Assembly: GCF_015694705.1 (NCBI RefSeq)
Contig: NZ_JADQDR010000013.1
Span: 62,001 to 126,000, forward strand
Length of the DNA stretch: 64,000 nucleotides
DNA from: Pontibacter rufus
GTDB lineage: Bacteria > Bacteroidota > Bacteroidia > Cytophagales > Hymenobacteraceae
Direction: 5' to 3'
Of this stretch, positions 39,211 to 54,943 are shown piece by piece. The notes beneath the pieces are model-generated. The model was not told the origin of the DNA. It saw only the letters and a list, made by a program, of their open reading frames with translations, and did no database searches. The first letter of the stretch is position 1. The number at the start of each line of letters is the position of its first letter. The translations under genes and the position numbers were made by a program.

Positions 39211-39894
39211 ATGGTTAGCAGGAAAGACAGCAGGGGCATCGTAATGGCGGCAGCAATAGTTGCCTGCTGGCTGGGATTGCTCGTATACCTGCTGTCTGTC
39301 TTTGCTGTGGATTTTGCTAACCCGCTTACGTACCTGTTCATCCTGCTACAAACGCACCTCTACACCGGCCTTTTTATTACTGCGCATGATGCCATGCATG
39401 GCGTGGCGGCACCTGGCAGGCCCGCACTTAACAAAAGTATAGGAACGGCAACGGCTTTGCTTTTTGCATTTAACTGGTATCCGCGGCTGCTGCCCCGCCA
39501 CCACCAGCACCACCGCCACGTAGCCACCAACCTGGACCCGGACTATCATGGCGGTTCTTTCGTGGCCTGGTATTTCAGTTTTCTGAAGCAGTATATTACC
39601 TGGTGGCAACTGCTGCTGATGGCTGTGAGCTTTAACGTGCTCAGGTTATACTTCCCGTTAGAGAACGTCATCCTGTTCTGGATGCTGCCGGCTATACTGG
39701 CTACTTTCCAGCTTTTCTACTTTGGTACTTACCAGCCGCATCATGGCGAACATGCACCCGGCAACAAACACAAATCCACCACACTGGCCACAAACCATTT
39801 GTGGGCTTTCCTGAGCTGCTACTTCTTCGGTTATCATTACGAGCATCACGACAAGCCATACCTGCCCTGGTGGCAATTGTATAAAACGAAGTAG
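39211..39894 (+). CDS. crtW: Beta-carotene ketolase CrtW
   Basis: This is a 227-residue membrane di-iron ketolase that introduces 4-oxo groups (beta-carotene to canthaxanthin, zeaxanthin to astaxanthin). The histidine boxes fit CrtW: HDAMH (59-63), HHQHHRH (97-103), a central FGTYQPHHGEH and the late GYHYEHHDKPYLPWWQL. The frame is open back to 38971, but that part carries a REP-like repeat and no family residues, so I start at ATG 39211 (MVSRKDSRG). It is 249 bases from ispH and may have its own promoter. Confidence 0.9.
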   Translation: MVSRKDSRGIVMAAAIVACWLGLLVYLLSVFAVDFANPLTYLFILLQTHLYTGLFITAHDAMHGVAAPGRPALNKSIGTATALLFAFNWYPRLLPRHHQHHRHVATNLDPDYHGGSFVAWYFSFLKQYITWWQLLLMAVSFNVLRLYFPLENVILFWMLPAILATFQLFYFGTYQPHHGEHAPGNKHKSTTLATNHLWAFLSCYFFGYHYEHHDKPYLPWWQLYKTK

Positions 39895-40495
39895 GTACTG
39901 GTGTTTGCTTTGTGCCACGGGAGGCTCTAAGGAGGGCGGAATGGTTCTGCATTACGTTTTCAGTGCTCCTGAAATCTCTCTTCCCTGGATTTACCTGCTT
40001 ATAGATATAAGGAACTCTGCTTTTTGAACCGTTTTTGCAGGAAAGTACATAAAAGCTTTTTGTTTTAGCAGGCGGCAGGAATCAATTTAAAGTATAAACG
40101 AAATCTGAAGAAGATACAAGCTGTTCAGCGTCAATAATTTGAACCTAGAAGTCTTTTGTCCTGCTACTTAATACAAACTGAAACAAGGTTTTCCAGGGGA
40201 GCTTTAAGCTCCCCTTTTTGTTGCCCTGAAGTTTAAGATGCAGAAGGCATTGCAACGGCTATCCGGGGGCAGGTTGCGCCACTTTCGGGCTTATACCTGG
40301 ATAATTATGCCACTTTGCCCCACTTTTCCCACTTAATGCCACAAACGCGGCAGCTAGCTGCTCGGTATGAAGTAAACTATACCTGGTGAAGGGTAAGGTG
40401 CTGGGAGCTAGAGTGTTAATGTTGAAGGGGATCGTATATAAGCAAAGAGTTAATCAGAAGCAAAAAAACTTATACCCAAAAATAAGTGCAGGATG
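39895..40495. other. Largest gap in the window, between crtW and mraZ (upstream part)
   Basis: No open frame of significance was found on either strand. The region contains the iterated 9-mer at 40090 and an orphan terminator (40195-40221). Reiterated GCCACTTT/CCCACTT words at 40309-40340 are pyrimidine-rich. A small RNA ending at the terminator is possible, but no promoter was convincing. The remainder up to 40635 is the dcw regulatory region listed separately. Confidence 0.5.
40195..40221 (+). terminator. Orphan rho-independent terminator upstream of dcw
   Basis: GGGGAGCTT (40196-40204) pairs with AAGCTCCCC (40206-40214), followed by TTTTTG. The nearest upstream gene on this strand ends 300 bases earlier, so it either ends a long crtW 3' UTR or a small RNA. 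Confidence 0.8.
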
Positions 40496-40542
40496 TGTGG
40501 ATAATGTGGATAAGTGGAGTGGATAACCATAATTTATCCACA
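40496..40542. promoter_or_regulatory. DnaA-box cluster upstream of the dcw operon
   Basis: Three perfect matches to the DnaA box TTATCCACA are found: reverse orientation at 40496-40504 and, directly abutting, 40505-40513 (TGTGGATAA twice), and forward at 40534-40542. A one-mismatch box AGTGGATAA is at 40518-40526. This is a dense cluster just ahead of the mraZ promoter. Confidence 0.7.
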
Positions 40543-40544
40543 AA

Positions 40545-40569
40545 GTGGTAAAAAGTGGTAGATTGTGGT
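40545..40569 (+). promoter_or_regulatory. MraZ-box-like repeats upstream of mraZ
   Basis: GTGGT occurs at 40545, 40555 and 40565, exactly 10 bases apart, the first two each preceded by AAA. MraZ binds three or four short direct repeats with one-turn spacing ahead of its own operon. The third copy runs into the -33 TTG, suited to repression. Confidence 0.6.
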
Positions 40570-40598
40570 TGCTGAGTTTTACTGAATCGCTACATTTG
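40569..40598 (+). promoter_or_regulatory. dcw operon promoter
   Basis: TTG at 40569-40571 and TACATTTG at 40591-40598 are separated by 19 bp, an excellent Bacteroidota promoter. The predicted start is about 40605, some 30 bases before mraZ. Confidence 0.75.
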
Positions 40599-40635
40599 TA
40601 GACACCGAAATCCATACGGACAAAAGCCCATTAGC

Positions 40636-41103
40636 ATGAATTTCCTCTCAGGCGAATATGAATGCAAGATTGATCCGAAGGGAAGGCTGGTTTTACCTGC
40701 AAAGATAAAAACCAACCTGCCGGAGGAATCGGGCAATCATGTGGTGCTGATGCGGGGGTTCGAGCCTTGCCTGGTGTTATATCCGAAAGCTGAGTGGAAG
40801 GTGATTTACGACAAAGTGGCCAGTCTGAACGAGTTTAACGAAGAATACCGCCAGTTTCAGCGCAACTTCTTCCGGGGTAATACCGAGATTGAGCTGGACG
40901 GAACAGGTCGTTTTATTGTGCCAAGGACAATGGCACGCTTTGCAGAACTGGAGAAAGAGGCTATTGTAGTGGGGCTTGGCAACCGCGTGGAGATATGGAA
41001 CCCTGATAAGTATGAGGAGTTCCTGATAAAGGATCAGCAGGACTTTTCGCAGCTGGCGCAGAAGTTTTTAGGTGATAAACCGGCCGGAGAGCCACTTATC
41101 TAA
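40636..41103 (+). CDS. mraZ: Division/cell-wall cluster transcriptional regulator MraZ
   Basis: This 155-residue protein has two AbrB-like swapped-hairpin domains, marked by KIDPKGRLVLPAKIKT (residues ~11-26) and ELDGTGRFIVPRTMARF. MraZ forms ring-shaped oligomers and regulates its own dcw operon; here a matching repeat array lies directly upstream. The stop codon overlaps the rsmH start by one base (TAATG). The first gene of the cluster. Confidence 0.96.
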   Translation: MNFLSGEYECKIDPKGRLVLPAKIKTNLPEESGNHVVLMRGFEPCLVLYPKAEWKVIYDKVASLNEFNEEYRQFQRNFFRGNTEIELDGTGRFIVPRTMARFAELEKEAIVVGLGNRVEIWNPDKYEEFLIKDQQDFSQLAQKFLGDKPAGEPLI

Positions 41104-42017
41104 TGGAGTATCATCGCCCCGTATTGCTGCAGGAGTCAGTTGAGGCCATGGCTATTAAGCAGGGTGGCGTGTATGTGGATGTAACGTTTGGCGGCGGCGG
41201 CCATTCCGCCTTAATCCTAAGCAGGCTTACAAGCGGTAAGCTGTATGGTTTTGACCAGGATCGGGATGCTGCAGAACAGGCCGCCAGGCTGGCAGGGCCA
41301 AATTTTGAGTTTGTACGCGCTAATTTCCGCGATCTTAAAAAGTACCTGCGCCTTTACGGGGTAAAGCAGGTAGATGCCGTGCTGGCAGATCTGGGTGTTT
41401 CGTCGCACCAGTTTAATGTGCCCGAACGTGGCTTTTCGACCCGTTTTGATGGCCCGCTGGATATGCGCATGAACCCGGAAGCAGGCATTACGGCAAAAGA
41501 AGTGCTGGAAACATACTCCGAGGAGCAGTTGCACCGCATTTTCGGGATGTATGGCGAAGTGAAGAATGCCAAAACGCTGGCCAGAACGATAGTAGAAAAG
41601 CGGGCCCGGCAGCCCTTTGCAACTATCAGCGAGTTTAAGCAGGGCATCAGTTCCTGTACGCCGAAAGGCAAAGAAAACAAATACCTGGCCCAGGTGTTTC
41701 AGGCGCTCCGCATCGAAGTAAACGACGAGATGAAGGCGCTGGAGGAAATGCTGGAGCAGGCAACAGAAGTGCTGAAGCCCGGGGGCCGGCTGGTGGTAAT
41801 ATCCTACCACTCGCTGGAAGACAGGCTGGTGAAAAATTTTATTGCCAAAGGCAGATTTTTCGGAGAAGTGGAAAAAGACCTGTTTGGTAATGAGCTTAAA
41901 CCGCTGGAGGCCGTTACGCGCAAACCCATTGTGCCGTCAGAACAGGAACTGCTGGACAACAGCCGCTCCAGAAGTGCTAAACTGAGAGTAGCAGTGAAAA
42001 GAGAAAAGAATGATTGA
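41103..42017 (+). CDS. rsmH: 16S rRNA (cytosine-1402-N4)-methyltransferase RsmH
   Basis: This 304-residue SAM-dependent methyltransferase modifies C1402 in the decoding centre. The family motifs are HRPVLLQESVEAM, VDVTFGGGGHSALIL for SAM binding, DAVLADLGVSSHQFN and the C-terminal VVISYHSLEDRLVKNF. Length is normal. It is in second position of the dcw operon as in most bacteria, overlapping mraZ by one base. Confidence 0.97.
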   Translation: MEYHRPVLLQESVEAMAIKQGGVYVDVTFGGGGHSALILSRLTSGKLYGFDQDRDAAEQAARLAGPNFEFVRANFRDLKKYLRLYGVKQVDAVLADLGVSSHQFNVPERGFSTRFDGPLDMRMNPEAGITAKEVLETYSEEQLHRIFGMYGEVKNAKTLARTIVEKRARQPFATISEFKQGISSCTPKGKENKYLAQVFQALRIEVNDEMKALEEMLEQATEVLKPGGRLVVISYHSLEDRLVKNFIAKGRFFGEVEKDLFGNELKPLEAVTRKPIVPSEQELLDNSRSRSAKLRVAVKREKND

Positions 42018-42058
42018 TAAATAAACAGCTGATTTATCAGCTAAAAACAAGTATAAGC

Positions 42059-42496
42059 ATGGCTACGAACCTCATGACGAAGAAACCGAGCGCACCCAGG
42101 CAGAATGCGGTGCGTGTGAAGCCTGAGGAAAAAGCGCCGCAATTGCCGCAGCCAAAACCAAGGGGCATCAGTTTATTCTCCCTGCTCGATAAGTATGCCA
42201 ACATTGACTTCCTGTTTGAGCAGGGCGTGCCGCTCAAGTACATGCCGCATGTTCTTTTTCTGACAGGTATTACTCTTTTCTATATCGGCAACACCCATTT
42301 CGCCGAAAAGACCATCCGCAAGATTGACAAAGTTAAGGTAGAGACGGAGGATCTGCGCGCAGATTATACTACCCTCAAGTCTGAATACATGGAGGCTAGC
42401 AAACAGTCGGAGGTGGCACGCAATGTGGCGCCGCTCGGCTTAATCGAAAGCTCTTCTCCTCCTTACCAGGTAAACGTGCCGGCAGATGAATATTAA
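42059..42496 (+). CDS. ftsL: FtsL-like cell division protein
   Basis: This 145-residue bitopic protein has a Lys/Pro-rich cytoplasmic N terminus of about 70 residues, one transmembrane helix (MPHVLFLTGITLFYIGNTHF), then a coiled-coil-like segment (EKTIRKIDKVKVETEDLRADYTTLKSEYMEASKQ). Size, topology and position between rsmH and ftsI fit FtsL, a partner of FtsQ and FtsB in the divisome. I prefer ATG 42059 to a TTG at 42014, which overlaps the rsmH stop. The sequence itself is poorly conserved, so identification rests on context. Confidence 0.75.
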   Translation: MATNLMTKKPSAPRQNAVRVKPEEKAPQLPQPKPRGISLFSLLDKYANIDFLFEQGVPLKYMPHVLFLTGITLFYIGNTHFAEKTIRKIDKVKVETEDLRADYTTLKSEYMEASKQSEVARNVAPLGLIESSSPPYQVNVPADEY

Positions 42497-44588
42497 AAAA
42501 TCCATACTGCTGCGGGTGCGGATAGCTTTTCTGGCTATCTGCCTTTTTGCATGCGCCATCGTGTACAAGGTGGTACGCATCCAGTTTATGGATGGCGCCA
42601 AATGGAAGAAGATTTCCAAAGAAAGACGCATACATTACCAGCCGGTATTTGCCACGCGCGGCAACATTTATTCAGACAACGAAAGTATACTGGCCACCTC
42701 GCTGCCATTTTACCGCGTTGCTTTTGACCCCACGGTAGCCGATGCGGAGGTTTTTAATGCCGGCATCGATTCCTTGTCGCTGCTGCTCTCACGCTACTAT
42801 AAAGACAGGTCCGAAGATTATTACCGCCGCAAGATCAAGAATGCCCGCCACGCCGGCCGGCGCTACATTCGCCTCAACAGCCACCAGATAGATTACCAGG
42901 CGAAGAAAACAATGGCTAAATGGCCTATCTTCAGGGAAGGCAAGAACAGGGGCGGCGTTATTTTCGAGAAAGTAGAGAAACGCTTTAAGCCATTCGGCAT
43001 ACTGGCAGACCGCACCATCGGCTTTATCAATGAAGACAAGAACGGCGCCGGGCTGGAGTATAGTTTCAATAGCGACTTGGCCGGTACAGACGGCGAAGCG
43101 CTGTTTGAACGCATGGCCGGCGGCAACAAACCTATCTACGATGGCACTGAAGTGCAGCCGCAGCATGGTTATGACATTACGACTACCATCGACATCAACC
43201 TGCAGGATGTGGCCGAAAACGCCCTCTACAAAACGCTGGAGAAGACGGATGCCGATCATGGCTGTGTGATTCTGATGGAAGTAAAAACCGGTGAAATAAA
43301 AGCTATCGTGAACCTGGGCAAAACTACCGGCGGCTACATCGAGGATTATAACTATGCCGTGGGCAGCCAGGGCCGCACAGAACCGGGCTCTACGTTTAAG
43401 CTGGCTTCTATGATGGCCATGTTTGAGTATACCAACAACAACCTGAAACTGACCGACACCGTGGACACGGGAAATGGCGTTTACCGCATCAAAAACACCA
43501 CCATGAGCGATTCCAAACATGGCGGCAACGGTAAAATAACAGTGCAGGAGGTTTTTGAAAAATCTTCGAACATCGGTGTGGCCAAACTCATGGAGAAGAC
43601 CTTTGGCAACAACCCGCAGGCCTATGTGGATTACCTGCATAAGTTTGGGCTGGATAACACGCTGGGGTTCCAGATGGAAGGAGAAGCGCGGCCATTTATA
43701 AAAAGTCCCAGCGACAGGACCTGGTATGGCACCACGCTTACTTCCATGGGCATCGGCTATGAGTTGAAAATATCACCCTTGCAGACGCTTGCATTTTATA
43801 ATGCTGTGGCCAACAACGGGGTAAAGGTGCAACCAATCATCGTGAAGGAAATCAGCAAGGCAGATAATGTAATCCAGGCTTTTCAGACACGCGTGCTGGT
43901 AGACAAGATATGCTCTGACGAAACTCTGAAAAAGCTGAAGGCTATGATGGAAGGTGTGGTAGCGCGGGGCACGGCAAGGAATATTCTGGGCACCGACTAT
44001 AAAGTGGCCGGCAAAACCGGTACTGCCAAAAAGGTGAAGAACGGCCACTATGTACGGGCTTACTCGGCATCCTTTGCAGGCTATTTTCCGGCTGATAACC
44101 CCAAGTATAGCTGCATCGTGATTATTGATGATCCGCAGGGGGTGAACGTGTATGGCGGCGATGTGGCGGCTCCTGTGTTCAAGGAGGTGGCAGACAAAGC
44201 ATACGCGCGCGACTTAGCCATGCACAAACCATTGCAGGAGCGCATGATTCCGAATAAGGAGAGCCTGCCGGATGTGAAAGCCGGAAATTTTGATGACCTG
44301 ACACTGATATGCAATAAAATTGGCATCAGCAACCATCCGCAAGGAACCGATGAGGAATGGGTGAAGGTAGAAGCAGCGAAAAGATCGCTCAACTTTAAAC
44401 CAAATCCGGTACTGGGTGGCCAGGTGCCGGACGTAACCGGCCTCACGCTGCGCGATGCTTTGTACATACTGGGTAATCAGCATTTCGAGGTGAACGTGGA
44501 AGGTACGGGCAAGCGTGTGAAAAAGCAGTCGCTGGAACCGGGCGCTGCCATCGATAAAGTAAAACAAATAACCATTGTTCTAAGCTAA
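42486..44588 (+). CDS. ftsI: Division-specific transpeptidase FtsI (PBP3-type) with C-terminal PASTA domain
   Basis: This 700-residue class B penicillin-binding protein cross-links septal peptidoglycan. It has an N-terminal membrane anchor (LLRVRIAFLAICLFACAIVYKVV), a dimerisation domain and a transpeptidase domain with Ser302-T-F-Lys305 (EPGSTFK), an SSN motif and Lys510-Thr-Gly. A single PASTA domain follows at the end (VPDVTGLTLRDALYILGNQ), not found in E. coli FtsI. It overlaps ftsL by 11 bases and murE by one. Confidence 0.95.
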   Translation: MNIKKSILLRVRIAFLAICLFACAIVYKVVRIQFMDGAKWKKISKERRIHYQPVFATRGNIYSDNESILATSLPFYRVAFDPTVADAEVFNAGIDSLSLLLSRYYKDRSEDYYRRKIKNARHAGRRYIRLNSHQIDYQAKKTMAKWPIFREGKNRGGVIFEKVEKRFKPFGILADRTIGFINEDKNGAGLEYSFNSDLAGTDGEALFERMAGGNKPIYDGTEVQPQHGYDITTTIDINLQDVAENALYKTLEKTDADHGCVILMEVKTGEIKAIVNLGKTTGGYIEDYNYAVGSQGRTEPGSTFKLASMMAMFEYTNNNLKLTDTVDTGNGVYRIKNTTMSDSKHGGNGKITVQEVFEKSSNIGVAKLMEKTFGNNPQAYVDYLHKFGLDNTLGFQMEGEARPFIKSPSDRTWYGTTLTSMGIGYELKISPLQTLAFYNAVANNGVKVQPIIVKEISKADNVIQAFQTRVLVDKICSDETLKKLKAMMEGVVARGTARNILGTDYKVAGKTGTAKKVKNGHYVRAYSASFAGYFPADNPKYSCIVIIDDPQGVNVYGGDVAAPVFKEVADKAYARDLAMHKPLQERMIPNKESLPDVKAGNFDDLTLICNKIGISNHPQGTDEEWVKVEAAKRSLNFKPNPVLGGQVPDVTGLTLRDALYILGNQHFEVNVEGTGKRVKKQSLEPGAAIDKVKQITIVLS

Positions 44589-46054
44589 TGCAATCGCTGC
44601 AAACCATATTGCAAGAGGTAAAAGTGCTGGATACCAGAGGTACGCTAAACGCCTCAGTGGAGGCAATTACCTTCGATTCGCGCCAGGTACGCGCGGGTGT
44701 GGCTTTTGTGGCGGTGCGCGGCGTGCAGACCGATGGACATGATTACATAAGCAAAGCTATAGCGACAGAAGCGGCCGTAATTGTCTGCGAAGCCCTGCCT
44801 GCGGAACTGGCGCCGGATGTAACTTACGTGGTGGTGCCCAATTCAGGCGAAGCACTGGGTAAAATGGCCTCTGCCTTTTACAATCATCCATCCCGGAAGC
44901 TGCAATTAATCGGCGTAACAGGCACTAACGGCAAAACAACTTCGGTTACGCTGCTGCACAAATTGTTCCGGGAACTGGGCTACCATGCAGGGCTGCTCTC
45001 CACGGTGCAAAATCAGATAGACGAGGAGGTGATTCCTGCTACCCACACCACCCCCGACGCTGTAACCCTCAACGCGTTGCTGGCGCAGATGCTGAAAGCC
45101 GGCTGCACCTATTGCTTTATGGAGGTGAGTTCGCATGCCATGGTGCAGCAGCGCGTAGCGGGCCTGACTTTTGCCGGTGGTGTATTTACCAACATCACCC
45201 ACGACCACCTGGATTATCACCAGACCTTTGATGCTTACATCAAAGCCAAAAAATCCTTTTTTGACATGCTGCCGGAAGGCGCTTTTGCGCTTATCAACGC
45301 CGATGATAAGCGCGGGCCCGTGATGGTGCAGAACACCAAAGCCAGTGTGCATTACTTTGCCCTGCGCAAAATGGCAGAGTTTAAAGCCCGCATCATCGAG
45401 AATACCCTGCAGGGGCTGCACCTGGATGTAAACGGGCACGAGATCTGGTGCAAGCTGATTGGCGCTTTTAATGCTTACAACCTGCTGGGCACCTATGGCG
45501 TGGCGGTGTTGCTGGGCGAAGATCCGGCAGAGGCGCTGACAGTGCTCTCCAGCCTTAACTCTGCCGCCGGCCGCTTCGATTACATCGTTTCGGATGCACA
45601 ACAAATAACAGGTATTGTGGATTATGCCCACACGCCGGATGCCCTGGAGAACGTGCTGCTCACGATAAAGGACATCCGCAACCCGAACCAGAAAGTAATT
45701 ACGCTGGTGGGCTGCGGGGGCAACCGTGATGCCGCCAAACGCCCGCTGATGGCTGATATCGCCTGCCGTTTCAGCGATAAAGTGATACTTACCTCGGATA
45801 ATCCGCGCTTTGAGGAGCCGCAGGCCATACTTGCGGATATGCAGAAAGGCGTGAAGCCCCTGGATTACAAGAAAACGCTCTCGGTGCTGGACCGCAAGGA
45901 GGCTATTAAGACTGCCTGCATGCTCGCGGGGCCCGATGATATCATACTCGTCGCCGGCAAAGGACACGAAACATACCAGGAGGTAAAAGGCGTGAAGTCT
46001 CCGTTTGATGATAAACAGGTGCTGCAGGAGATGTTCACCCAGTTAGGAAAGTAA
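44588..46054 (+). CDS. murE: UDP-MurNAc-L-Ala-D-Glu:meso-diaminopimelate ligase MurE
   Basis: This 488-residue Mur ligase adds the third amino acid to the peptidoglycan stem. The ATP-binding P-loop is GVTGTNGKTTSVTLLHKLF (~residues 110-128), and the DNPR motif (TSDNPRFEEP) is that of meso-DAP-specific enzymes, so the wall is expected to be of DAP type. It overlaps ftsI by one base. A 61-base gap separates it from mraY. Confidence 0.96.
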   Translation: MQSLQTILQEVKVLDTRGTLNASVEAITFDSRQVRAGVAFVAVRGVQTDGHDYISKAIATEAAVIVCEALPAELAPDVTYVVVPNSGEALGKMASAFYNHPSRKLQLIGVTGTNGKTTSVTLLHKLFRELGYHAGLLSTVQNQIDEEVIPATHTTPDAVTLNALLAQMLKAGCTYCFMEVSSHAMVQQRVAGLTFAGGVFTNITHDHLDYHQTFDAYIKAKKSFFDMLPEGAFALINADDKRGPVMVQNTKASVHYFALRKMAEFKARIIENTLQGLHLDVNGHEIWCKLIGAFNAYNLLGTYGVAVLLGEDPAEALTVLSSLNSAAGRFDYIVSDAQQITGIVDYAHTPDALENVLLTIKDIRNPNQKVITLVGCGGNRDAAKRPLMADIACRFSDKVILTSDNPRFEEPQAILADMQKGVKPLDYKKTLSVLDRKEAIKTACMLAGPDDIILVAGKGHETYQEVKGVKSPFDDKQVLQEMFTQLGK

Positions 46055-46115
46055 GCAGAAGACACAAGTATAAACCAGTTATTTGCAGATAAGCACAGGA
46101 AACCGATTTTAATAA

Positions 46116-47336
46116 ATGTTATATTTTCTTTTCACATACCTCGACCGCGAATTCGACTTTCTGGGAGCCGGTGTATTTCAATACATCTCTTTCCGGGCAG
46201 GTATGGCCACGTTGCTGTCGCTGCTGATTGCCATGATTTTTGGCGGCAGGCTGATAAAGGTGCTGCAGCGCAAGCAGGTAGGCGAGAGCATCCGCGATCT
46301 CGGCCTGGAGGGACAGATGGAGAAGAAAGGAACTCCTACGATGGGCGGCCTCATAATTCTGATGGCCATACTGGTGCCGGTGCTGCTTTTTGCCCGCCTC
46401 GACAATGTATACATCCAGCTGATGCTCGTGTCTACCGTCTGGCTGGGGATGATCGGCTTCCTGGATGATTACATCAAAGTATTCAGAAAAAATAAAGAGG
46501 GTTTGGCCGGCCGTTTCAAGATTTTAGGCCAGATTGGATTGGGGCTGATCGTAGGCCTCACGCTGTATTTCTCTGACGATGTAACCGTGCGCCAGTATAT
46601 TTTTGCGGATGGCGGCACTTCCTCTGTAAATGCTACCAAGCACTTTGTGGATGTAAAATCGATGATCACGACCATCCCTTTTCGCAAAAACAACGAGCTG
46701 GATTACTGCAACCTGTTTGCCTTTGCCGGCCCGCTCTTCCAGGACTGGTCCTGCTATCTCTATATTCCGTTCGTGATTCTGGTGATAACAGCAGTTTCTA
46801 ACGGAGCCAACATCACCGACGGCATCGATGGCCTTGCAGCAGGCACTTCGGCGATTATTGGCACCACGCTGGCCATCTTTACCTACGTATCCGGTAACAC
46901 CATTTTTGCAGATTACCTCGATATCATGTTTATCCCTAACTCCGGCGAACTGGCTATTTTCTGTCTGGCTTTTGTGGGAGCATGCGTTGGCTTCCTGTGG
47001 TATAACTCGTATCCGGCGCAGGTATTCATGGGCGACACAGGCAGCCTGGCCATTGGCGGCATTATCGCCGTGTTGGCCCTGATTGTAAGAAAAGAATTAC
47101 TTATACCAATACTATGCGGCATCTTCCTGGTCGAGAACCTGTCGGTGATGCTGCAGGTGAGCTACTTTAAGTATACGCGCAAGAAGTATGGCGAAGGCCG
47201 CCGCATCTTTAAAATGTCGCCGCTGCACCATCATTATCAGAAAATGGGCTACCACGAGTCTAAAATAGTAGGCCGCTTCTGGATTGTGGGCATCATGCTG
47301 GCCATTTTTACGCTGGTAACGCTGAAGCTGAGGTAA
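46116..47336 (+). CDS. mraY: Phospho-MurNAc-pentapeptide transferase MraY
   Basis: This 406-residue polytopic enzyme transfers phospho-MurNAc-pentapeptide to undecaprenyl phosphate, forming lipid I. Conserved parts are [14 protein letters not shown], the Asp pair in [13 protein letters not shown], and the [15 protein letters not shown] and [23 protein letters not shown] loops, and [19 protein letters not shown] at the end. About ten helices are expected. It ends one base before the repeat that brackets the inserted gene. Confidence 0.97.
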
Positions 47337-47337
47337 G

Positions 47338-47370
47338 GTCGTTGTTCGTTGTTCGTCAATCGTTGTTTGG
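47338..47370. repeat. Left inverted-repeat arm bracketing the four-helix-bundle gene
   Basis: A reiterated GTTGTTCGTTGTTCGTC run. Positions 47338-47355 (18 bases) are exactly complementary to 47750-47767 on the other side of the inserted gene. It begins just after the mraY stop codon. Confidence 0.75.
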
Positions 47371-47385
47371 AAATTAAGTATAAAG

Positions 47386-47742
47386 ATGATGGACTACAAG
47401 GAACTGGATGTATGGAAGAAGAGCAGAAGTCTCACCAGTAGCATTTATAATCTGTCAAGGACTTTTCCGAAAGATGAAGTCTTCGGCTTGACAAGCCAGA
47501 TGAGAAGAGCCGCAGTGTCGGTATCATCAAATATAGCAGAAGGTTGTGGCAGGCAGCATGCCAAAGATTCTATACAAATATTTTATATAGCCAGAGGATC
47601 TTTATACGAACTGGAAACGCAGCTTTATGTCGCGTCAGACCAAGGTTATGTGAAGCAACCTGTTTTTGACCAGACAATAAATGAGATTACAAATTGCAAG
47701 CAGATGCTAAACGGCCTGATCAAATATTTCAAAGGTTTATAA
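47386..47742 (+). CDS. Four-helix-bundle protein (23S rRNA intervening-sequence protein family)
   Basis: This 118-residue protein of the S23/IVS family (TIGR02436-like) contains MDYKELDVWKKSRSLTSSIYNLSRTFPKDEVFGLTSQMRRAAVSVSSNIAEGCGR, the typical N terminus and second helix. The family was first seen in intervening sequences inside 23S rRNA genes, and the DGR accessory protein Avd has the same fold; function is unknown. It interrupts the dcw operon between mraY and murD and is flanked by inverted repeats, so it is probably a mobile or horizontally spread cassette. The first of two adjacent ATGs is annotated. Confidence 0.88.
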   Translation: MMDYKELDVWKKSRSLTSSIYNLSRTFPKDEVFGLTSQMRRAAVSVSSNIAEGCGRQHAKDSIQIFYIARGSLYELETQLYVASDQGYVKQPVFDQTINEITNCKQMLNGLIKYFKGL

Positions 47743-47746
47743 CTGA

Positions 47747-49129
47747 ATGCGAACAACGAACAACGACAAACGAACAACTAAACTTGCTGTACTCGGAGCG
47801 GGAGAGAGTGGTGTGGGAGCCGCTTTGCTGGCAAAAGCAAAGGGGCTGGAAGTGTTTGTGTCGGATGGCGGGCAGATAAAGGAAGTATATAAAGCAAAAC
47901 TAGAGGCAGCAGCCATTCCTTTTGAAGAAGGTGGCCATACGTTTGAACGTATTCTGGAGGCGACTCAGATCATCAAAAGCCCGGGTATCCCGGACAAAGT
48001 GCCTGTTATACAGGAGGCTGTGAAGCGGGAAATCCCAATTATTTCGGAAATAGAGTTTGCCGGCAGGTATACCGATGCCAGATTCATTTGCATCACCGGT
48101 ACCAACGGTAAAACCACTACCACGCTGCTGACCTATCACCTGCTGCGCGAGGCAGGTATAAACGTGGCGCTGGCAGGTAATATAGGCGAGAGCCTGGCGG
48201 AGAAGGTGATCGAAAACAAGTATGATTATTATGTGGTGGAGCTTAGCAGCTTTCAGCTGGATAACATGTACCAGTTTAAGGCGCATATTGCCGTGCTCAC
48301 CAACATCACGCCCGACCACCTGGACCGCTACGAGTATAGTATGGACAAGTATGCCGCTTCCAAGCTGCGTGTGGCGCAGAACATGACGGGTACTGATTTC
48401 TTTATTTATAATGCGGATGATGAAAATATCAGCAAGGCCTTCCAATCCAATGCTTTCGGCGGAACTGCAGTGCCTTTCTCGCTGCAAGGCGCTGAAAAGG
48501 CCAAAATAACGCTGGAGGGGCAACGTGTAAAGGTGAATTTACCCTACTATGAAGGCAACGTCGATATTTCTGAATCGAGCCTGATTGGCAAACATAACCA
48601 GTACAACACCATGGCGGCCGTAGCCGTGGCCAAGTTGCTAAGTATAGACGATGCGGCCATTGCTCAGGCATTGGCGACGTTTCAGAATGCAGATCACCGC
48701 CTGCAAACCGTGGGAGAGGCCAAAGGGGTTACCTACATCAACGACTCCAAAGCCACCAATGTGGAAGCGGTGTGGTATGCGCTGGAAGGTATAAAACAGC
48801 CCATTATCTGGATAGCGGGCGGGGTGGACAAAGGCAACGATTACAGCACCCTGCAGGAACTGGCACGCGAAAAGGTGAAGGTGCTCATCTGCCTGGGCAA
48901 AGACAACGAAAAACTGCAGCAGGCCTTCGGGAAAGTGGTGCCCATTATTGCCGAAACTACCTCTATCGGGTATGCCGTGCGCCTGAGCCGCTCGCTGGCA
49001 GAGCCTGGAGATGTGGTGCTGTTGTCGCCGGCCTGTGCCAGCTTCGATTTATTTAACAATTACGAACACCGGGGGCAGCAATTCAAAGAAGCTGTAGAAA
49101 AGATAGTGCTGAAGAACAACCAGGAATAA
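47747..49129 (+). CDS. murD: UDP-MurNAc-L-alanine:D-glutamate ligase MurD
   Basis: This 460-residue Mur ligase adds D-Glu to UDP-MurNAc-Ala. P-loop FICITGTNGKTTTTLLTYHLL, then ELSSFQLDNMYQ, NITPDHLDRY and NDSKATNVEA are all typical. The ATG lies in the repeat arm flanking the four-helix-bundle gene, so the first ~12 residues (MRTTNNDKRTTK) are encoded by repeat DNA; the conserved protein begins at KLAVLGAGESGVG. A later start is not evident, since no ATG, GTG or TTG precedes that motif in frame outside the repeat. Confidence 0.95.
   Translation: MRTTNNDKRTTKLAVLGAGESGVGAALLAKAKGLEVFVSDGGQIKEVYKAKLEAAAIPFEEGGHTFERILEATQIIKSPGIPDKVPVIQEAVKREIPIISEIEFAGRYTDARFICITGTNGKTTTTLLTYHLLREAGINVALAGNIGESLAEKVIENKYDYYVVELSSFQLDNMYQFKAHIAVLTNITPDHLDRYEYSMDKYAASKLRVAQNMTGTDFFIYNADDENISKAFQSNAFGGTAVPFSLQGAEKAKITLEGQRVKVNLPYYEGNVDISESSLIGKHNQYNTMAAVAVAKLLSIDDAAIAQALATFQNADHRLQTVGEAKGVTYINDSKATNVEAVWYALEGIKQPIIWIAGGVDKGNDYSTLQELAREKVKVLICLGKDNEKLQQAFGKVVPIIAETTSIGYAVRLSRSLAEPGDVVLLSPACASFDLFNNYEHRGQQFKEAVEKIVLKNNQE
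47749..47783. repeat. Right inverted-repeat arm overlapping the murD start
   Basis: A CGAACAACGAACAACGACAA run, of which 47750-47767 is the exact 18-base complement of 47338-47355. It is translated as the N terminus of MurD. Confidence 0.75.
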
Positions 49130-49154
49130 CAAACCCGTTTTACCGGAGGTGATG

Positions 49155-50321
49155 ATGAAAAAGTGGTTACAGGAAAATTTAAAAGGAGATCCGATGCTGT
49201 GGGGTATTGTGATCATCTTCTCGCTTATAAGCGTGGCGGTGGTCTATTCTGCTACAGGCACACTTGCCTACAAAAAAATGGAGGGCAATACAGAATATTT
49301 CCTGTTCAAGCATTCATCCCTGATCCTGCTTGGCCTGGGGTGTATGTGGGCCGCCCATAAAATCAATTACCGTTACTATTCTAAGCTGTCGCTGCTGGCA
49401 CTGCTGGTGTCGGCACCGCTGCTGATCGTTACCTACTTTTACGGTTCTAACATCAACGAAGCCTCGCGCTGGATTACAATTCCGGTTATCAACCAGACAT
49501 TCCAGCCCTCAGATTTAGCCAAATTGGCCCTGATTTCATACCTGGCCAGCATGTTGTCTAAAAAGCAGCAGATGCTGCATGATATTAAACGCACCCTGAT
49601 CCCGATTTTCGGCTGGACAGTGGCTATTTGCGCTTTAATTGCGCTGACAAACACCTCTACTGCGGTGCTTCTTTTCATCACGTGCCTGCTGCTGATGTTT
49701 ATCGGCCGGGTGCCCGTAAAATATTTAGCTGCCGTGGTTGTGGCGGGCGGCATCATTGGCGGTACGGCTTTGACACTGGGCCAGCGCCTGGACACCGCTG
49801 TCAGCCGGATGGAAGATTTCATGGATCCAACTAAAACGGCCTTTCAACTGGAGCAGTCCTACATCGCCATCGCCACAGGCGGGGTAGTGGGCAAAGGCCC
49901 CGGCAACAGCGATCAGCGCGACATCCTGCCGCACCCTTATTCTGACTTTATCTATGCCATTATTCTGGAGGAGTATGGCTTGATCGGAGGCGTGGTGGTG
50001 CTGTTTTTATACCTGGCGCTCCTATACCGGGGCCTGGTTACGGTCAGTAAAAGCAACGGGGCTTTTGGCGGGCTCCTATCCGCCGGGGTAAGCTTTAGCC
50101 TTGTGATGCAGGCGTTGATCAATATGGGGGTAGCCGTGGGCCTGGGGCCGATTACGGGTTTGCCGCTGCCGCTTTTAAGTATGGGAGGCACATCGCTTAT
50201 TTTCACCGGTATTTCGCTCGGGATTATACTTAGCGTGAGCCGTGCTGATACCGAGTTTACACGTGCCGCTACAGAAACTGTACCCAATAAAATACAAGCC
50301 AATAAACCTGTAAATGCCTAA
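49155..50321 (+). CDS. ftsW: Septal peptidoglycan glycosyltransferase FtsW
   Basis: This SEDS-family polymerase of about 388 residues works with FtsI at the septum. There are about ten transmembrane helices. The conserved loops SRWITIPVINQTFQPSDLAKLALI and YSDFIYAIILEEYGLIGG, and GLPLPLLSMGGTSLIF near the end, identify SEDS proteins. GTG, ATG and ATG occur in a row at 49149-49157; a strong GGAGG at 49145-49149 is best spaced for the last ATG (49155), an unusually good Shine-Dalgarno for this phylum. Confidence 0.95.
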   Translation: MKKWLQENLKGDPMLWGIVIIFSLISVAVVYSATGTLAYKKMEGNTEYFLFKHSSLILLGLGCMWAAHKINYRYYSKLSLLALLVSAPLLIVTYFYGSNINEASRWITIPVINQTFQPSDLAKLALISYLASMLSKKQQMLHDIKRTLIPIFGWTVAICALIALTNTSTAVLLFITCLLLMFIGRVPVKYLAAVVVAGGIIGGTALTLGQRLDTAVSRMEDFMDPTKTAFQLEQSYIAIATGGVVGKGPGNSDQRDILPHPYSDFIYAIILEEYGLIGGVVVLFLYLALLYRGLVTVSKSNGAFGGLLSAGVSFSLVMQALINMGVAVGLGPITGLPLPLLSMGGTSLIFTGISLGIILSVSRADTEFTRAATETVPNKIQANKPVNA

Positions 50322-51426
50322 TCCGCAGAGACCATATCGCGTGATCATCAGCGGGGGCGGCACCGGCGGGCACATATACCCCGCAGTGGCCATTGCCAAC
50401 CAGCTAAGGGTGGTGGACCCGGCGGCGGAGATCCTGTTTGTGGGTGCACAAGGCCGTATGGAGATGACGCGCGTGCCGGAAGCAGGTTATAAGATTGTGG
50501 GCCTGTGGATCAGCGGGCTGCAGCGCCGCCTGACACTGGACAACCTGTCGTTCCCGTTCAAAGTGCTTTCCAGCGTGCGGGCAGCGCACCGGATCATCAA
50601 AGAGTTTAAGCCGGATGCTGTGGTAGGTGTGGGCGGCTATGCCAGCGGTCCCTTGCTGTATGCGGCCACTGCCCGTAAAATTCCGGCCCTGATTCAGGAG
50701 CAAAATTCGTATGCCGGCATTACCAACAAAATATTGGGCAGGCGTGTGGACAAAATCTGCGTGGCTTACCCCAACATGGAAGCTTTTTTTCCGGCTGAGA
50801 AACTGGTGCTGACCGGCAATCCGGTACGCGCCGACATCATGGACAGCCATACCAGAAGGGCAGAGGCGCTGCAGCATTTTAGCCTGAACGGAGATAAAAA
50901 AACAATCCTGGTGATAGGCGGAAGCTTGGGTGCCAGAACATTAAACCAAAGTATAGCCGCTGGGCTGGAGCAGCTGGTACAAACTGGTTATAACCTGGTC
51001 TGGCAGACGGGCAAGCTGTTTTTGCCGGAAGCGGAAGTATTCGCTGCTAAGTATAAAGCGCACGGAATCCGGGTATCGGACTTTATCAGCCGCATGGATT
51101 TGGCCTATGCCATGGCTGATGTGGTTATTTCCAGGGCGGGTGCTTTGTCTATTTCAGAGCTGTGCCTGGCCGGCAAGCCTGCGGTGCTGGTGCCTTCACC
51201 GAATGTGGCCGAAGATCATCAGACAAAAAATGCGCTGGCGCTGGTGCAGCAGCAGGCGGCTATACTGGTGCGCGATGCTGAGGCTGCCGAAAAACTGGTG
51301 CCCGCTGTGCTGCAACTGGCCGGCAACACGGAGGAACAGCAGCGCCTAAGCCGGAATATTCTGAAAATGGCGCGGCCCAATGCCGCCGCCGATATTGTGA
51401 ACGAGCTACTAAAGATAATCAGGTGA
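50314..51426 (+). CDS. murG: UDP-GlcNAc:undecaprenyl-PP-MurNAc-pentapeptide transferase MurG
   Basis: This 370-residue GT-B glycosyltransferase turns lipid I into lipid II on the inner membrane face. The N-terminal GGGTGGHIYPAVAIANQL motif and C-terminal VISRAGALSISELCLAGKPAVLVPSPNVAEDHQTKNA are diagnostic. It overlaps ftsW by 8 bases and murC by 4. Confidence 0.97.
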   Translation: MPNPQRPYRVIISGGGTGGHIYPAVAIANQLRVVDPAAEILFVGAQGRMEMTRVPEAGYKIVGLWISGLQRRLTLDNLSFPFKVLSSVRAAHRIIKEFKPDAVVGVGGYASGPLLYAATARKIPALIQEQNSYAGITNKILGRRVDKICVAYPNMEAFFPAEKLVLTGNPVRADIMDSHTRRAEALQHFSLNGDKKTILVIGGSLGARTLNQSIAAGLEQLVQTGYNLVWQTGKLFLPEAEVFAAKYKAHGIRVSDFISRMDLAYAMADVVISRAGALSISELCLAGKPAVLVPSPNVAEDHQTKNALALVQQQAAILVRDAEAAEKLVPAVLQLAGNTEEQQRLSRNILKMARPNAAADIVNELLKIIR

Positions 51427-52817
51427 AACTGGAGGACTATACATATATCTACTTCCTCGGCATCGGCGGCATTGGTATGAGTGCCATTGCCCGCTGGTTC
51501 AGGGCGAAAGGTTTTCCGGTATGGGGTTACGACAAGACCCGTACTGCGCTGACCGAAGCACTGGAACAGGAAGGGATTATGGTGCACTATGAAGACAACC
51601 TGGCACAACTTCCGGAACAGGTGCTGCAGCATAAAGAGCAGACTTTGGTGGTGCTCACGCCAGCCATCCCAGCCGATCACGAGGAGTGGGCTTACCTGAA
51701 AGCACAGGGCTATACGATAAAGAAGCGTTCGGAAGTATTGGGCATTATCACCGCTGCGGCTTATACCGTGGCTGTGGCCGGCACACATGGCAAAACCACA
51801 ACCTCTTCCATCGTGACGCACCTGCTGCACCAGGCGGGGGTAGATTGTTCTGCTTTTTTAGGAGGTATCGCTGCCAACCTGAATTCCAACCTGCTGATTG
51901 GTAAAGGCGAAACCGAACATGAGGTAATTGTAGTGGAAGCGGATGAGTATGACCGCTCTTTCCTGACGCTCTTTCCGGATATTGCCATCGTAACATCCGC
52001 AGACCCGGACCATCTGGATATTTATGGCAATCAGGAAGAGATGCTACGCACTTATCAGCAATTTATCAGCCAAATCAAGCCGGGTGGTTACCTGCTGTTG
52101 CAGGCAGATACAGATCCACGCCTGGCCGATAAGGTACAGGCAGGAGTATACGTTATCAGGTATGGCCTGCAGCAGGGCCAGGCGCATGTGCAGCAACTGC
52201 ACATACATGGGCGCTGGTTTGCGTTTGATGCGGTGAGTCCGTTGGGAGACATTACTGGGCTGCGCCTGGGGGTACTTGGTTTCCATAACGTGGAAAATAC
52301 GCTGGCTGCCATACTTGCCGCGCAGGTGCTAAAGGTGCCGGCAACAAGTATAAGTGCCGGTGTCGCGTCCTTTGCGGGGGTAAAGCGCCGCTTTGAGTTT
52401 GTATATGAAGGGAAGGGCAAAGTATACATCGACGACTATGCACATCACCCGAAAGAAATAGATGCTTTTATGACGTCTTTGCGCGCTTTGTATCCGGGCA
52501 AGCGGATTAAGGTGCTGTTTCAGCCGCACCTGTTCAGCCGCACCCGCGACTTTGCTGCCGAATTTGCCGAAAGCCTGGACAAGGCCGATGAGGTGGTGCT
52601 GCTGGACATTTATCCGGCGCGGGAAAAGCCGCTGCCGGGCGTTACTTCGGCGCTTATCCTGAACCAGGTAAACTGCCCGGTAAAGGAGTTGCTGCCCAAA
52701 GAGGAAATCCTTGGGAATTTGTTTAAAAACGGCGATTTTGATGTGCTGGCTACGATTGGCGCCGGCGATATTGATACGCTGGTAAAGCCGATTAGAAATT
52801 TTTTAGAAAAATCCTGA
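51423..52817 (+). CDS. murC: UDP-MurNAc:L-alanine ligase MurC
   Basis: This 464-residue ligase adds the first amino acid to UDP-MurNAc. The N terminus has FLGIGGIGMSAIARWFRAKG, the P-loop is VAVAGTHGKTTTSSIVTHLL, and EADEYDRSFLTLFPDIAIVTSADPDHLDIYG and IDDYAHHPKEIDAFM follow. It starts with GTG 51423, whose GTGA overlaps the murG stop. The D-Ala ligase and MurB genes sometimes found next are absent here. Confidence 0.97.
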   Translation: MKLEDYTYIYFLGIGGIGMSAIARWFRAKGFPVWGYDKTRTALTEALEQEGIMVHYEDNLAQLPEQVLQHKEQTLVVLTPAIPADHEEWAYLKAQGYTIKKRSEVLGIITAAAYTVAVAGTHGKTTTSSIVTHLLHQAGVDCSAFLGGIAANLNSNLLIGKGETEHEVIVVEADEYDRSFLTLFPDIAIVTSADPDHLDIYGNQEEMLRTYQQFISQIKPGGYLLLQADTDPRLADKVQAGVYVIRYGLQQGQAHVQQLHIHGRWFAFDAVSPLGDITGLRLGVLGFHNVENTLAAILAAQVLKVPATSISAGVASFAGVKRRFEFVYEGKGKVYIDDYAHHPKEIDAFMTSLRALYPGKRIKVLFQPHLFSRTRDFAAEFAESLDKADEVVLLDIYPAREKPLPGVTSALILNQVNCPVKELLPKEEILGNLFKNGDFDVLATIGAGDIDTLVKPIRNFLEKS

Positions 52818-52818
52818 T

Positions 52819-53580
52819 ATGAGCTTGAACGGTAAAATAAAATCTCTAATTTTTGCAGGTTGCAGCTTGGTTACAATCGGCGCTTTGGCAGGATTTGCTT
52901 CTTCCAGGCAGCAGGAAAAGATCTGTGAAAAAGTGACGATAAATATTGATAATGAATACAACAATTACTTTATTGGGGATAAGGAAGTACGGGACCTGCT
53001 GACCCGGGAGGGCGACCGGAATTTAGAAGGGCTGCCAAACCAAAATATAGATCTGAAAAACCTTGAAAAACGCCTCGAAGCGCATAAATTTGTAAAGGAT
53101 GCCGAGGTATACCGGGAGCTTGATGGAAATATCCATGTAAGTGTAAAACAGACAAGGCCTATCGCCAGAATTATACGATCAGATCAGGATGTATACATTG
53201 ATGCTGCGGGAAATATTCTTCCGCTCTCTGACAGATACACCGCTCGTGTAATCCCGATAACAAAGTCGGCGCTGCTGAAATCTTCTGACAAAGGTTTCTT
53301 CCAGGATTCCGTCGGCCAGTCTTATCTTTCTCTGCTGCAGTTCATCGAGAACGATCAGTTTTGGAAAGCACAGTTAGCCCAGATGCATATTGATGCCAAG
53401 GGCAAAGTATCCTTTTTGCCTCAGGTGGGGGAGCAGACCATTGAGTTTGGAAAGCCCACCAACATCGAGAAAAAGTTTACCAAGCTAATGATCTTTTATA
53501 AAAAAGTGCTGCCTGTTATGGGGTGGGATAAGTATAAAAGAGTAAATTTAGAGTACGAAAACCAGATTATTTGTGAATAA
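52819..53580 (+). CDS. ftsQ: Cell division protein FtsQ/DivIB
   Basis: This 253-residue bitopic divisome protein has a short cytoplasmic tail, one membrane helix (LIFAGCSLVTIGALAGFAS), a POTRA domain (about residues 40-110, VTINIDNEYNNYFIGDKEVRDLL...HVSVKQTRPIARI) and a beta domain. Its position between murC and ftsA is the canonical one. Its sequence is divergent from the E. coli protein, as usual. It begins one base after the murC stop and ends 12 bases before ftsA. Confidence 0.9.
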   Translation: MSLNGKIKSLIFAGCSLVTIGALAGFASSRQQEKICEKVTINIDNEYNNYFIGDKEVRDLLTREGDRNLEGLPNQNIDLKNLEKRLEAHKFVKDAEVYRELDGNIHVSVKQTRPIARIIRSDQDVYIDAAGNILPLSDRYTARVIPITKSALLKSSDKGFFQDSVGQSYLSLLQFIENDQFWKAQLAQMHIDAKGKVSFLPQVGEQTIEFGKPTNIEKKFTKLMIFYKKVLPVMGWDKYKRVNLEYENQIICE

Positions 53581-53592
53581 CCTAATAAAAAT

Positions 53593-54918
53593 ATGCAGAA
53601 CGACAAAATAGTAGTAGGCTTGGACATCGGGACAACCAAAGTTTGCGCGCTTGTTGGTCGGAAGAATGAATTTGGGAAGCTGGAAATACTGGGCATGGGC
53701 AAAGCCATATCCGAAGGTGTGGTGCGGGGCATTGTCAGCAACATCGATAAGACGGTAGAAGCTATTAAAAAAGCCATCCGCCAGGCAGAGGAGCAGTCGG
53801 GAATAAATATTGGCGTGGTAAACGTAGGGATTGCAGGGCAGCACATCAAAAGCCTGCAGCATAATGGCAGCATTACGCGACAGGTAACTGACAATGAAAT
53901 CACTGTAGACGATGTAAACCGCCTTACCAATGATATGTACCGATTGGTGACACCTCCCGGCAGCGAAATTATTCATGTGATGCCGCAGGAGTATAAGGTA
54001 GATTATGAGGAAGGTATCGTAGACCCGGTCGGAATGTCGGGGGTGCGACTGGAAGGTAATTTCCACATCATTACAGCACAGTCCAACGCCATCAACAACA
54101 TCAACAAATGCGTCACCCGTGCCGGGCTGGAAATTGATAACCTGATCCTCGAACCACTGGCTTCCTGCATGTCGGTGCTGAGCGATGAGGAGAAGGAAGC
54201 GGGCGTTGCTTTGGTGGATATTGGCGGCGGCACTACCGATCTGGCTATCTTCAAAGACAATATTATCCGCCATACGGCAGTTCTACCTTTTGGGGGCAGT
54301 ATTATCACCTCCGACATTAAGCAGGGCTGCATGGTGATGCAAAACCAGGCAGAGCAGCTGAAAGTGAAATTTGGCAAAGCCATTGCAGATGAAGCCTCGG
54401 AAAACGAGATTGTCTCGATACCCGGTTTGCGTGACCGCACGCCAAAGGAAATATCGCTAAAAAACCTGGCCTTTATTATTGAGGCAAGGATGGAGGAGAT
54501 TATTGAGCTGGTGTATGCCGAAATTGTGCGTTCGGGTTTTGCCAACACCTTAGCCGCCGGTATCGTGATTACGGGCGGCGGCGCACAGATGCAGAACCTG
54601 GTGCAGCTGGTAGAGTACATCACCGGTATGGACACGCGTATTGGTTACCCGAACGAGCACCTGGGCAAATCGAAGGTAGAAGCCGTGAAGAGCCCGATGT
54701 ATGCAACCAGCGTAGGATTGGTGCTGGCCGGCTACCAGCCGATAGACCAGCGTGTGGAGCATTACGTGGATGTGCCGGCGCAGGATGAATACAATAATAA
54801 GCCGATTCAACCGAAAGCCAACCACAGCAGCGGCAACGCTGCCGGTGCTGGCGGCGGTCTGCTACAAAAGCTCAAGGGCTTTTTATCAGACGATATAGAC
54901 AATAAACAAAGTTATTAA
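53593..54918 (+). CDS. ftsA: Cell division protein FtsA
   Basis: This 441-residue actin-like protein tethers FtsZ to the membrane. Phosphate-binding segments VVGLDIGTTKVCALVG and GVALVDIGGGTTDLAIF, and the GIVITGGGAQMQNL adenosine motif are present. A SHS2 insert lies between. A Ser/Asn/Gly-rich linker leads to the amphipathic C-terminal helix (GLLQKLKGFLSDD) that binds membrane. Confidence 0.97.
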   Translation: MQNDKIVVGLDIGTTKVCALVGRKNEFGKLEILGMGKAISEGVVRGIVSNIDKTVEAIKKAIRQAEEQSGINIGVVNVGIAGQHIKSLQHNGSITRQVTDNEITVDDVNRLTNDMYRLVTPPGSEIIHVMPQEYKVDYEEGIVDPVGMSGVRLEGNFHIITAQSNAINNINKCVTRAGLEIDNLILEPLASCMSVLSDEEKEAGVALVDIGGGTTDLAIFKDNIIRHTAVLPFGGSIITSDIKQGCMVMQNQAEQLKVKFGKAIADEASENEIVSIPGLRDRTPKEISLKNLAFIIEARMEEIIELVYAEIVRSGFANTLAAGIVITGGGAQMQNLVQLVEYITGMDTRIGYPNEHLGKSKVEAVKSPMYATSVGLVLAGYQPIDQRVEHYVDVPAQDEYNNKPIQPKANHSSGNAAGAGGGLLQKLKGFLSDDIDNKQSY

Positions 54919-54943
54919 CCCATTAAGAGCAGGAGAGATTAGT

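Follow-up and report, generated by a model that had tools for sequence, protein, structure and literature searches.

A Predicted Composite DnaA-MraZ Operator at the dcw Promoter of Pontibacter rufus and Its Close Relatives

Results

Organization of the mraZ Locus

The genome of Pontibacter rufus comprises 5.03 Mb in 21 contigs, and the window, i.e. the whole stretch of 64,000 nucleotides analyzed here, sits in contig C4. A 741-bp intergenic gap separates a crtW-like gene from mraZ, the product of which has its closest relatives in Pontibacter species (89-95 percent identity). Downstream of mraZ (Table 1), rsmH is followed by an unnamed ORF in the ftsL position, a gene for an FtsI/PBP2-like transpeptidase, murE, mraY, an ORF for a four-helix-bundle protein, murD, an ftsW-like gene, murG, murC, a second unnamed ORF in the ftsQ position, ftsA, and ftsZ. 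The FtsI/PBP2-like transpeptidase and the FtsW-like protein were assigned with scores under the curated cut-offs. The ORFs in the ftsL and ftsQ positions were labeled by position alone; profile searches (E up to 1e-3 and, in a second search, E up to 1e-20) returned no match for these two. The four-helix-bundle ORF (TIGR02436) lies at positions 47386-47742, between mraY and murD within the dcw cluster.

Table 1. Features predicted at the mraZ locus of P. rufus (positions in the window)
Feature	Position	Strand	Basis
Terminator-like hairpin with T-run, between upstream gene and promoter	40195-40215	+	Weak: 2 found, 0.9 expected by shuffling
Putative DnaA box 1, TTATCCACA	40496-40504	-	Exact match
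Putative DnaA box 2, TTATCCACA, abutting box 1	40505-40513	-	Exact match
GTGG linking boxes 2 and 3	40514-40517	+	1.94 bits, 58 loci
Putative DnaA box 3, near-match TTATCCACT	40518-40526	-	Inexact match
Putative DnaA box 4, TTATCCACA, orientation opposite to boxes 1-3	40534-40542	+	Exact match
MraZ-type operator, three GTGGT repeats, 10-bp period	40542-40569	+	Sequence pattern
TTG promoter element, -33-type	40569-40571	+	Sequence; conservation of 95 percent or more, 58 loci
-7 promoter element TACATTTG (TAnnTTTG)	40591-40598	+	Consensus of PMC9723704; 1.85 bits, 58 loci
mraZ, first dcw gene	40636-41103	+	TIGR00242, 121.5 bits, cut-off 98.35
Remaining dcw cluster, rsmH to ftsZ	41103-56461	+	Profile matches and position

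Because a terminator-like hairpin precedes it, the dcw promoter may be insulated from the upstream crtW-like gene. An RNA element was considered for positions 39850-40700 and dropped, since an Rfam scan of this region was negative (E up to 1).

DnaA-box Cluster, MraZ-type Repeats, and Promoter

The earlier note had claimed three perfect TTATCCACA boxes, two of them abutting, plus one near-match within 47 bp, and all of them were found between positions 40496 and 40542. Exact TTATCCACA occurs 40 times in the whole genome, compared with 21 occurrences of a reversed-pattern control. A triple of exact boxes inside 47 bp was found nowhere else among these 40; if 40 boxes were scattered at random, about 2e-6 such triples would be expected. 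A GTGG core common to boxes and MraZ repeats, likewise proposed in that note, was confirmed for all boxes, and the last A of box 4 also belongs to the first MraZ repeat (AAAGTGGT).

The GTGGT repeats described for positions 40545, 40555, and 40565 with 10-bp spacing were borne out by the sequence. The spaced triple is the sole match in the window at up to two mismatches, with 0.05 expected by shuffling, and RTGG-N6-RTGG-N6-RTGGTTG has a single occurrence in the entire genome. As expected of a MraZ operator, direct GTGG repeats are located close upstream of mraZ, and a MraZ protein scoring above the TIGR00242 cut-off is encoded. The TTG next to the last repeat we take to be the Bacteroidota -33 element; it is spaced from the -7 element TACATTTG by 19 bp. 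The good promoter postulated in the earlier note stood, and the placement of its TTG inside the last repeat held for the first T only, which is shared with the last GTGGT. TAnnTTTG is given as the -7 consensus of a flavobacterium, occupying -12 to -5 (PMC9723704), and on this basis the start site was placed near 40603. A sigma-70 promoter of the E. coli type was also searched for; none was found, and this candidate was dropped in favor of the Bacteroidota consensus, which fits.

Conservation in Pontibacter and Neighboring Genera

mraZ loci were sampled as the best 80 of 142 stretches, 79 of which were named loci; 57 of these belong to Pontibacter, Botryobacter, Rufibacter, Adhaeribacter, and Sabulibacter. 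Missing conservation of the boxes upstream of mraZ in relatives had been set as grounds for refutation, and the opposite was observed: in these five nearest named genera every one of the 57 fetched loci kept the cluster, with three or more boxes of no more than one mismatch each in the region from -160 to -1. Three exact boxes and one near-match were present in this region in 38 loci, two of each kind in 15, two exact and one near-match in 3, and one exact and two near-matches in 1. Exact boxes in the promoter region and box positions conserved in relatives from five genera are features expected of a DnaA-controlled promoter.

When the 57 loci were aligned with the window (n = 58), box 1 was exact in 55 loci and box 2 in 41, with 13 of the 17 box 2 variants differing at position 5 only. 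Box 4 was invariant (58/58). Box 3 was never exact and carried one or two mismatches in every locus (TTATCCACC in 30, TAATCCACA in 17, TTATCCACT in 7, and other forms in 4). Conservation over the 58 loci amounted to 1.95, 1.84, 1.71, and 2.00 bits per base for boxes 1 to 4 and to 1.77 bits per base for the MraZ array, with lower values around the block (0.66-0.77 bits upstream, 0.78 in the promoter spacer, and 0.83 in the leader). The bases between the boxes were nearly as conserved as the boxes themselves (1.94 bits in the gap between boxes 2 and 3 and 1.75 bits between boxes 3 and 4), and a further protein may for this reason be bound there. The conserved inter-box bases are 40514-40517 and 40527-40533; AAGTGG continues from box 2.

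A crtW-like neighbor within 2 kb of mraZ was encountered in only 14 of the 57 loci. Thus, the box cluster travels with mraZ rather than with the upstream gene. As it was not found within this distance in the other 43 loci, the crtW-like gene was dropped as a target of the cluster.

Enrichment of TTATCCACA at the GC-skew Switch

Boxes were counted at the skew switch of the P. rufus genome (G000) and of genome G067. The G067 zone and the stretch of contig C15 in P. rufus were chosen for their boxes, the position of the skew switch being independent of that choice; in these zones, 20 exact TTATCCACA occurred in 80 kb of G067, taken from the interval of 2.855-2.96 Mb, as opposed to 2 in 400 kb elsewhere, and 9 exact boxes in 100 kb were counted in P. 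rufus, a number also reached by 3 of the other 1679 permutations. The box-rich zones extend over C15:200751-282202 in G000 (L222-L226) and C1:2861184-2957890 in G067 (L237-L240) and probably represent the origin region. Their boxes are scattered over about 80-100 kb without a single tight cluster. Another exact box, at C16:156213-156221, precedes the dnaA match in P. rufus by approximately 150 bp and is likely an autoregulation site. The DnaA protein itself has GGRDHSTVIHS close to its C terminus. In view of its enrichment at the skew switch, TTATCCACA was taken as the working DnaA box here; the enrichment and the box upstream of dnaA suggest that this word behaves as the DnaA box of the family.

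The DnaA-box consensus is quoted as TTWTNCACA (PMC12371093). Box 2 reads TTATGCACA or TTATACACA in 13 of the 58 loci (Rufibacter, Adhaeribacter, Sabulibacter). These variants have lost GTGG and kept TTWTNCACA, pointing to box 2 as a site for DnaA rather than for MraZ. The common forms of box 3 depart from TTWTNCACA, and here the signal for DnaA versus MraZ is less clear than for box 2.

An inverted pair of boxes, TGTGGATAA-N6-TTATCCACA, was observed at C6:16867-16890 of G000 (L230:6867-6890). Twenty-six of 50 Pontibacter genomes have a single copy of the pair, and in 10 of the 12 loci fetched (from 12 of the 26 genomes) it is flanked by the same two neighboring ORFs; judged by eye, one is helix-turn-helix-like and the other plastocyanin-like. 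The G035 copy, at 0.545 Mb, is distant from the skew switch. The pair is perhaps a DnaA-recycling or titration site.

Distribution beyond the Five Genera

Twenty of the 40 genomes found for the Hymenobacteraceae genera g4 and g5 were sampled; g5 includes Hymenobacter, its locus L188 resembling the named locus L072 of H. ginkgonis. No exact box was seen within 700 bp of mraZ in any of these 20 Hymenobacter-like loci (L179-L198), two of which have a one-mismatch word. The MraZ array is present in all 20, with ATGG as the middle repeat in 16. Either the boxes were lost in these genera or they were gained in the sister genera. Conservation across the Hymenobacteraceae, which the earlier note had suggested checking, was upheld for five genera (57/57) and not for the family as a whole (0/20 in g4 and g5).

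Of the named loci drawn from the best 80 of 142 stretches, 22 fall outside the five genera, and 10 of these have an exact box within 600 bp. Twenty loci were inspected from other families (20 of 35 non-family genomes); in 5 of them, three from family f15, a box with no more than one mismatch occurs within 200 bp, and the other 15 lack such a box at this distance. Since the Hymenobacter-like loci are without exact boxes and most of the inspected loci of other families without any such box within 200 bp, dcw control in general does not depend on the link of boxes and array. In a set of 42 far loci, which was not deduplicated and contains some genomes twice (e.g. L061 and L252), exact TTATCCACA lay within 200 bp of mraZ in 11, against a mean of 0.16 over 1680 letter permutations, and only the MraZ motif outscored TTATCCACA among these permutations. 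Among 341 genomes of the order, some of which repeat named loci with the same match coordinates, 28 carry an exact box joined to the array; the reversed control gave none. Seventeen belong to the Hymenobacteraceae (including 11 of 12 of genus g1, P. rufus among them) and 11 to f15, and mraZ starts 51-73 bp past the array in 28/28. Extra exact boxes, dispersed to about 550 bp upstream of mraZ, were observed in L073-L076, L262-L265, and L247.

A Nine-mer Adjoining the MraZ Array in Bacteroidia

A looser pattern, TTWTNMACA, in which position 6 of the box is restricted to A or C, was found together with the array in 102 of 395 class genomes and 59 of 197 genera (control: 0); the genomes without a match include those without mraZ or without a regular array. 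mraZ lies downstream in 28 of 29 checked loci (29 of the 102 examined), the exception being L336. The 102 nine-mers are TTTTCAACA (43), TTATTAACA (24), TTATCAACA (24), TTTTTAACA, TTATCCACA, and TTTTCCACA (3 each), and two singletons. With A at position 6 in 95 of the 102 they mostly read TTWTYAACA, at the same spacing to the array, and so depart from TTWTNCACA at this position. In the class relatives L337-L339, a second, inverted TTWTYAACA precedes the array-abutting copy by 17 bp.

In the skew-switch zone of G067, TTATCAACA was found 5 times in 80 kb versus 3 times in 400 kb, ranking top of 1260 permutations, and TTTTCAACA 4 times versus 7 times in 400 kb, a result reached by 6 of 1260 permutations. 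TTATTAACA showed no enrichment there, with 1 occurrence in 80 kb versus 4 in 400 kb. In P. rufus, the 190-290-kb zone has three copies of TTATCAACA, a count matched by 78 of 1260 permutations. Near the skew switch of G1061 at 1.67 Mb, a 552-bp intergenic stretch contains four TTATCAACA matches with up to one mismatch and no TTATCCACA match; TTATCAACA ranked top of 1260 permutations in this stretch, which was chosen after viewing box density. Zone-wide, TTWTYAACA amounted to 12 in 230 kb around the G1061 switch and 12 in 340 kb elsewhere. From the sequences it is conceivable, and suggested here only tentatively, that the joint DnaA-MraZ operator is ancient and widespread in Bacteroidia, that the nine-mer abutting the array is the DnaA box of each lineage, and that Pontibacter and its kin expanded it to four. 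The lack of enrichment of TTATTAACA in G067 and of zone-wide enrichment in G1061 makes this reading less likely.

Alternative Explanations

A DnaA-box cluster in a 741-bp intergenic gap might be part of the chromosomal origin oriC, as the earlier note had considered. GC skew argues against this idea. The switch of the P. rufus genome was located on another contig (near C15:250 kb) and not at the cluster. Skew is positive on both sides of the cluster in contig C4, where eight sampled stretches of 16-20 kb were all positive; at the 4-kb scale, two windows at 56-62 kb were slightly negative. Sampling of the single-contig relatives G035 and G067 in 20-kb stretches placed the negative-to-positive change between 2.73 and 2.98 Mb and at about 2.84 to 3.06 Mb, respectively, with mraZ at 4.43 and 1.28 Mb, i.e. 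roughly 1.5-1.8 Mb from the switch; G067 was noisier at the 5-kb scale, and G186 and G310 were noisy. mraZ also lies outside the switch interval by at least about 165 kb in G616, a single-contig genome of family f15. According to a paper on Prevotella intermedia, oriC and dnaA commonly lie far apart in Bacteroidetes (PMC4755523), and the position of dnaA on contig C16 here fits this remark. As the cluster is not at the negative-to-positive switch, oriC was dropped; we regard it as highly improbable.

Distance from the switch is, on the other hand, what would be expected if the cluster were mainly a site for titration or recycling of DnaA, similar to datA or DARS, that happened to lie in the mraZ promoter and had only secondary effects on the dcw genes. 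The boxes are compact and strong, and Pontibacter has another conserved non-origin box pair (26/50 genomes). Such a site need not accompany mraZ, however, and the spacing of the boxes to the MraZ array and promoter is fixed over 58 loci, just as that of the abutting nine-mer is over 59 genera of the class sample, which makes this explanation unlikely. It is also rather unlikely that the boxes resemble the DnaA box by coincidence and either extend the MraZ operator in this lineage or serve another regulator. The GTGG core common to the boxes and the MraZ repeats, the almost equal conservation of the inter-box bases, and the departure of most class nine-mers (TTWTYAACA) from TTWTNCACA at position 6 would agree with this view. 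Yet three boxes agree in all nine letters with the word that is enriched at the skew switch of G067, where TTATCAACA is enriched as well (top of 1260 permutations), and box 2 loses GTGG and keeps the DnaA consensus in 13 loci.

Discussion

The features described above are best accounted for by a composite DnaA-MraZ operator of the dcw promoter, and binding of both proteins is predicted with some confidence from the arrangement of the sites. DnaA would bind to boxes 1-4, centered at about -103, -94, -81, and -65 relative to the start near 40603, and MraZ to the three repeats at about -58 to -34. The repeats extend to the promoter TTG, which is touched by the last of them. This fits repression, which MraZ would be expected to exert by obstructing the promoter. 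DnaA at box 4 might displace MraZ, activate from upstream, or aid repression by MraZ, and the level or nucleotide state of DnaA would then set the transcription of division and cell wall genes. We infer that DnaA and MraZ both bind here and influence each other. Simultaneous binding is doubtful since box 4 and the first repeat have one base in common, an overlap that agrees with the competition suggested in the earlier note, and the two proteins probably compete or cooperate at box 4. At about -107 to -61, the boxes appear better suited to activation or to displacement of MraZ than to a direct block of the promoter. Their position upstream of the promoter elements makes us lean toward activation or anti-repression, to which we assign an even chance; co-repression is a somewhat doubtful possibility. 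In a preprint dealing with E. coli and S. aureus, cell cycle-dependent changes in expression are mostly ascribed to replication of the respective gene; the mraZ-ftsZ operon of E. coli is treated likewise, and dnaA as an exception (PMC10081379); this account would count against control of the dcw promoter by DnaA.

The closest precedent is the ftsL promoter of Bacillus subtilis, where binding of DnaA was reported by ChIP (reviewed in PMC8203912). In both cases a promoter of division genes in the dcw neighborhood is concerned, bound by DnaA in B. subtilis and predicted to be bound in P. rufus; P. rufus differs in belonging to another phylum and in boxes that abut a MraZ array in a fixed and conserved order. 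RsmH and PbpB of B. subtilis are encoded in the FtsL operon; upon replication arrest, their levels were apparently unchanged and FtsL was not detected (PMC11019786). For E. coli and Mycoplasma genitalium, MraZ is described as repressing its own cluster, and the MraZ operators of E. coli and Mollicutes resemble the array described here in having direct repeats similar to AAAGTG[T/G], the Mollicutes motif, in the mraZ promoter, whereas the account in PMC8475190 makes no mention of DnaA boxes there (PMC8475190). In Caulobacter, DnaA likewise acts as a transcription factor for cell cycle genes (ftsZ, gcrA, podJ, mipZ), but at the ftsZ rather than the mraZ promoter, and a part played by MraZ is not mentioned in the review (PMC8203912). 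The DnaA boxes of E. coli ftsQA are also situated upstream of ftsZ in the dcw region; unlike those of P. rufus, they are intragenic and were later shown to be without effect on ftsZ transcription (PMC8203912). Compared with the box-rich zone of E. coli oriC, datA, DARS1, and DARS2 (PMC12371093), the mraZ cluster is distant from such a zone.

DnaA at the ftsL promoter of B. subtilis and at ftsZ of Caulobacter means that control of this kind is already known (PMC8203912). No description of such a DnaA-MraZ site was encountered among the matches listed from the open-access literature, which leaves most subscription papers outside its scope. As far as the open literature shows, the architecture, the strength of its conservation, the phylum, and the possible class-wide reach are new. 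If the class-wide reading were true, the initiator and the division repressor would meet on one site of the dcw promoter. Touching putative sites for DnaA and MraZ in front of the whole dcw cluster reduce the question to a few base changes in a promoter-reporter construct. The control region suggests that in Pontibacter-like bacteria the division genes may be tied directly to DNA replication.
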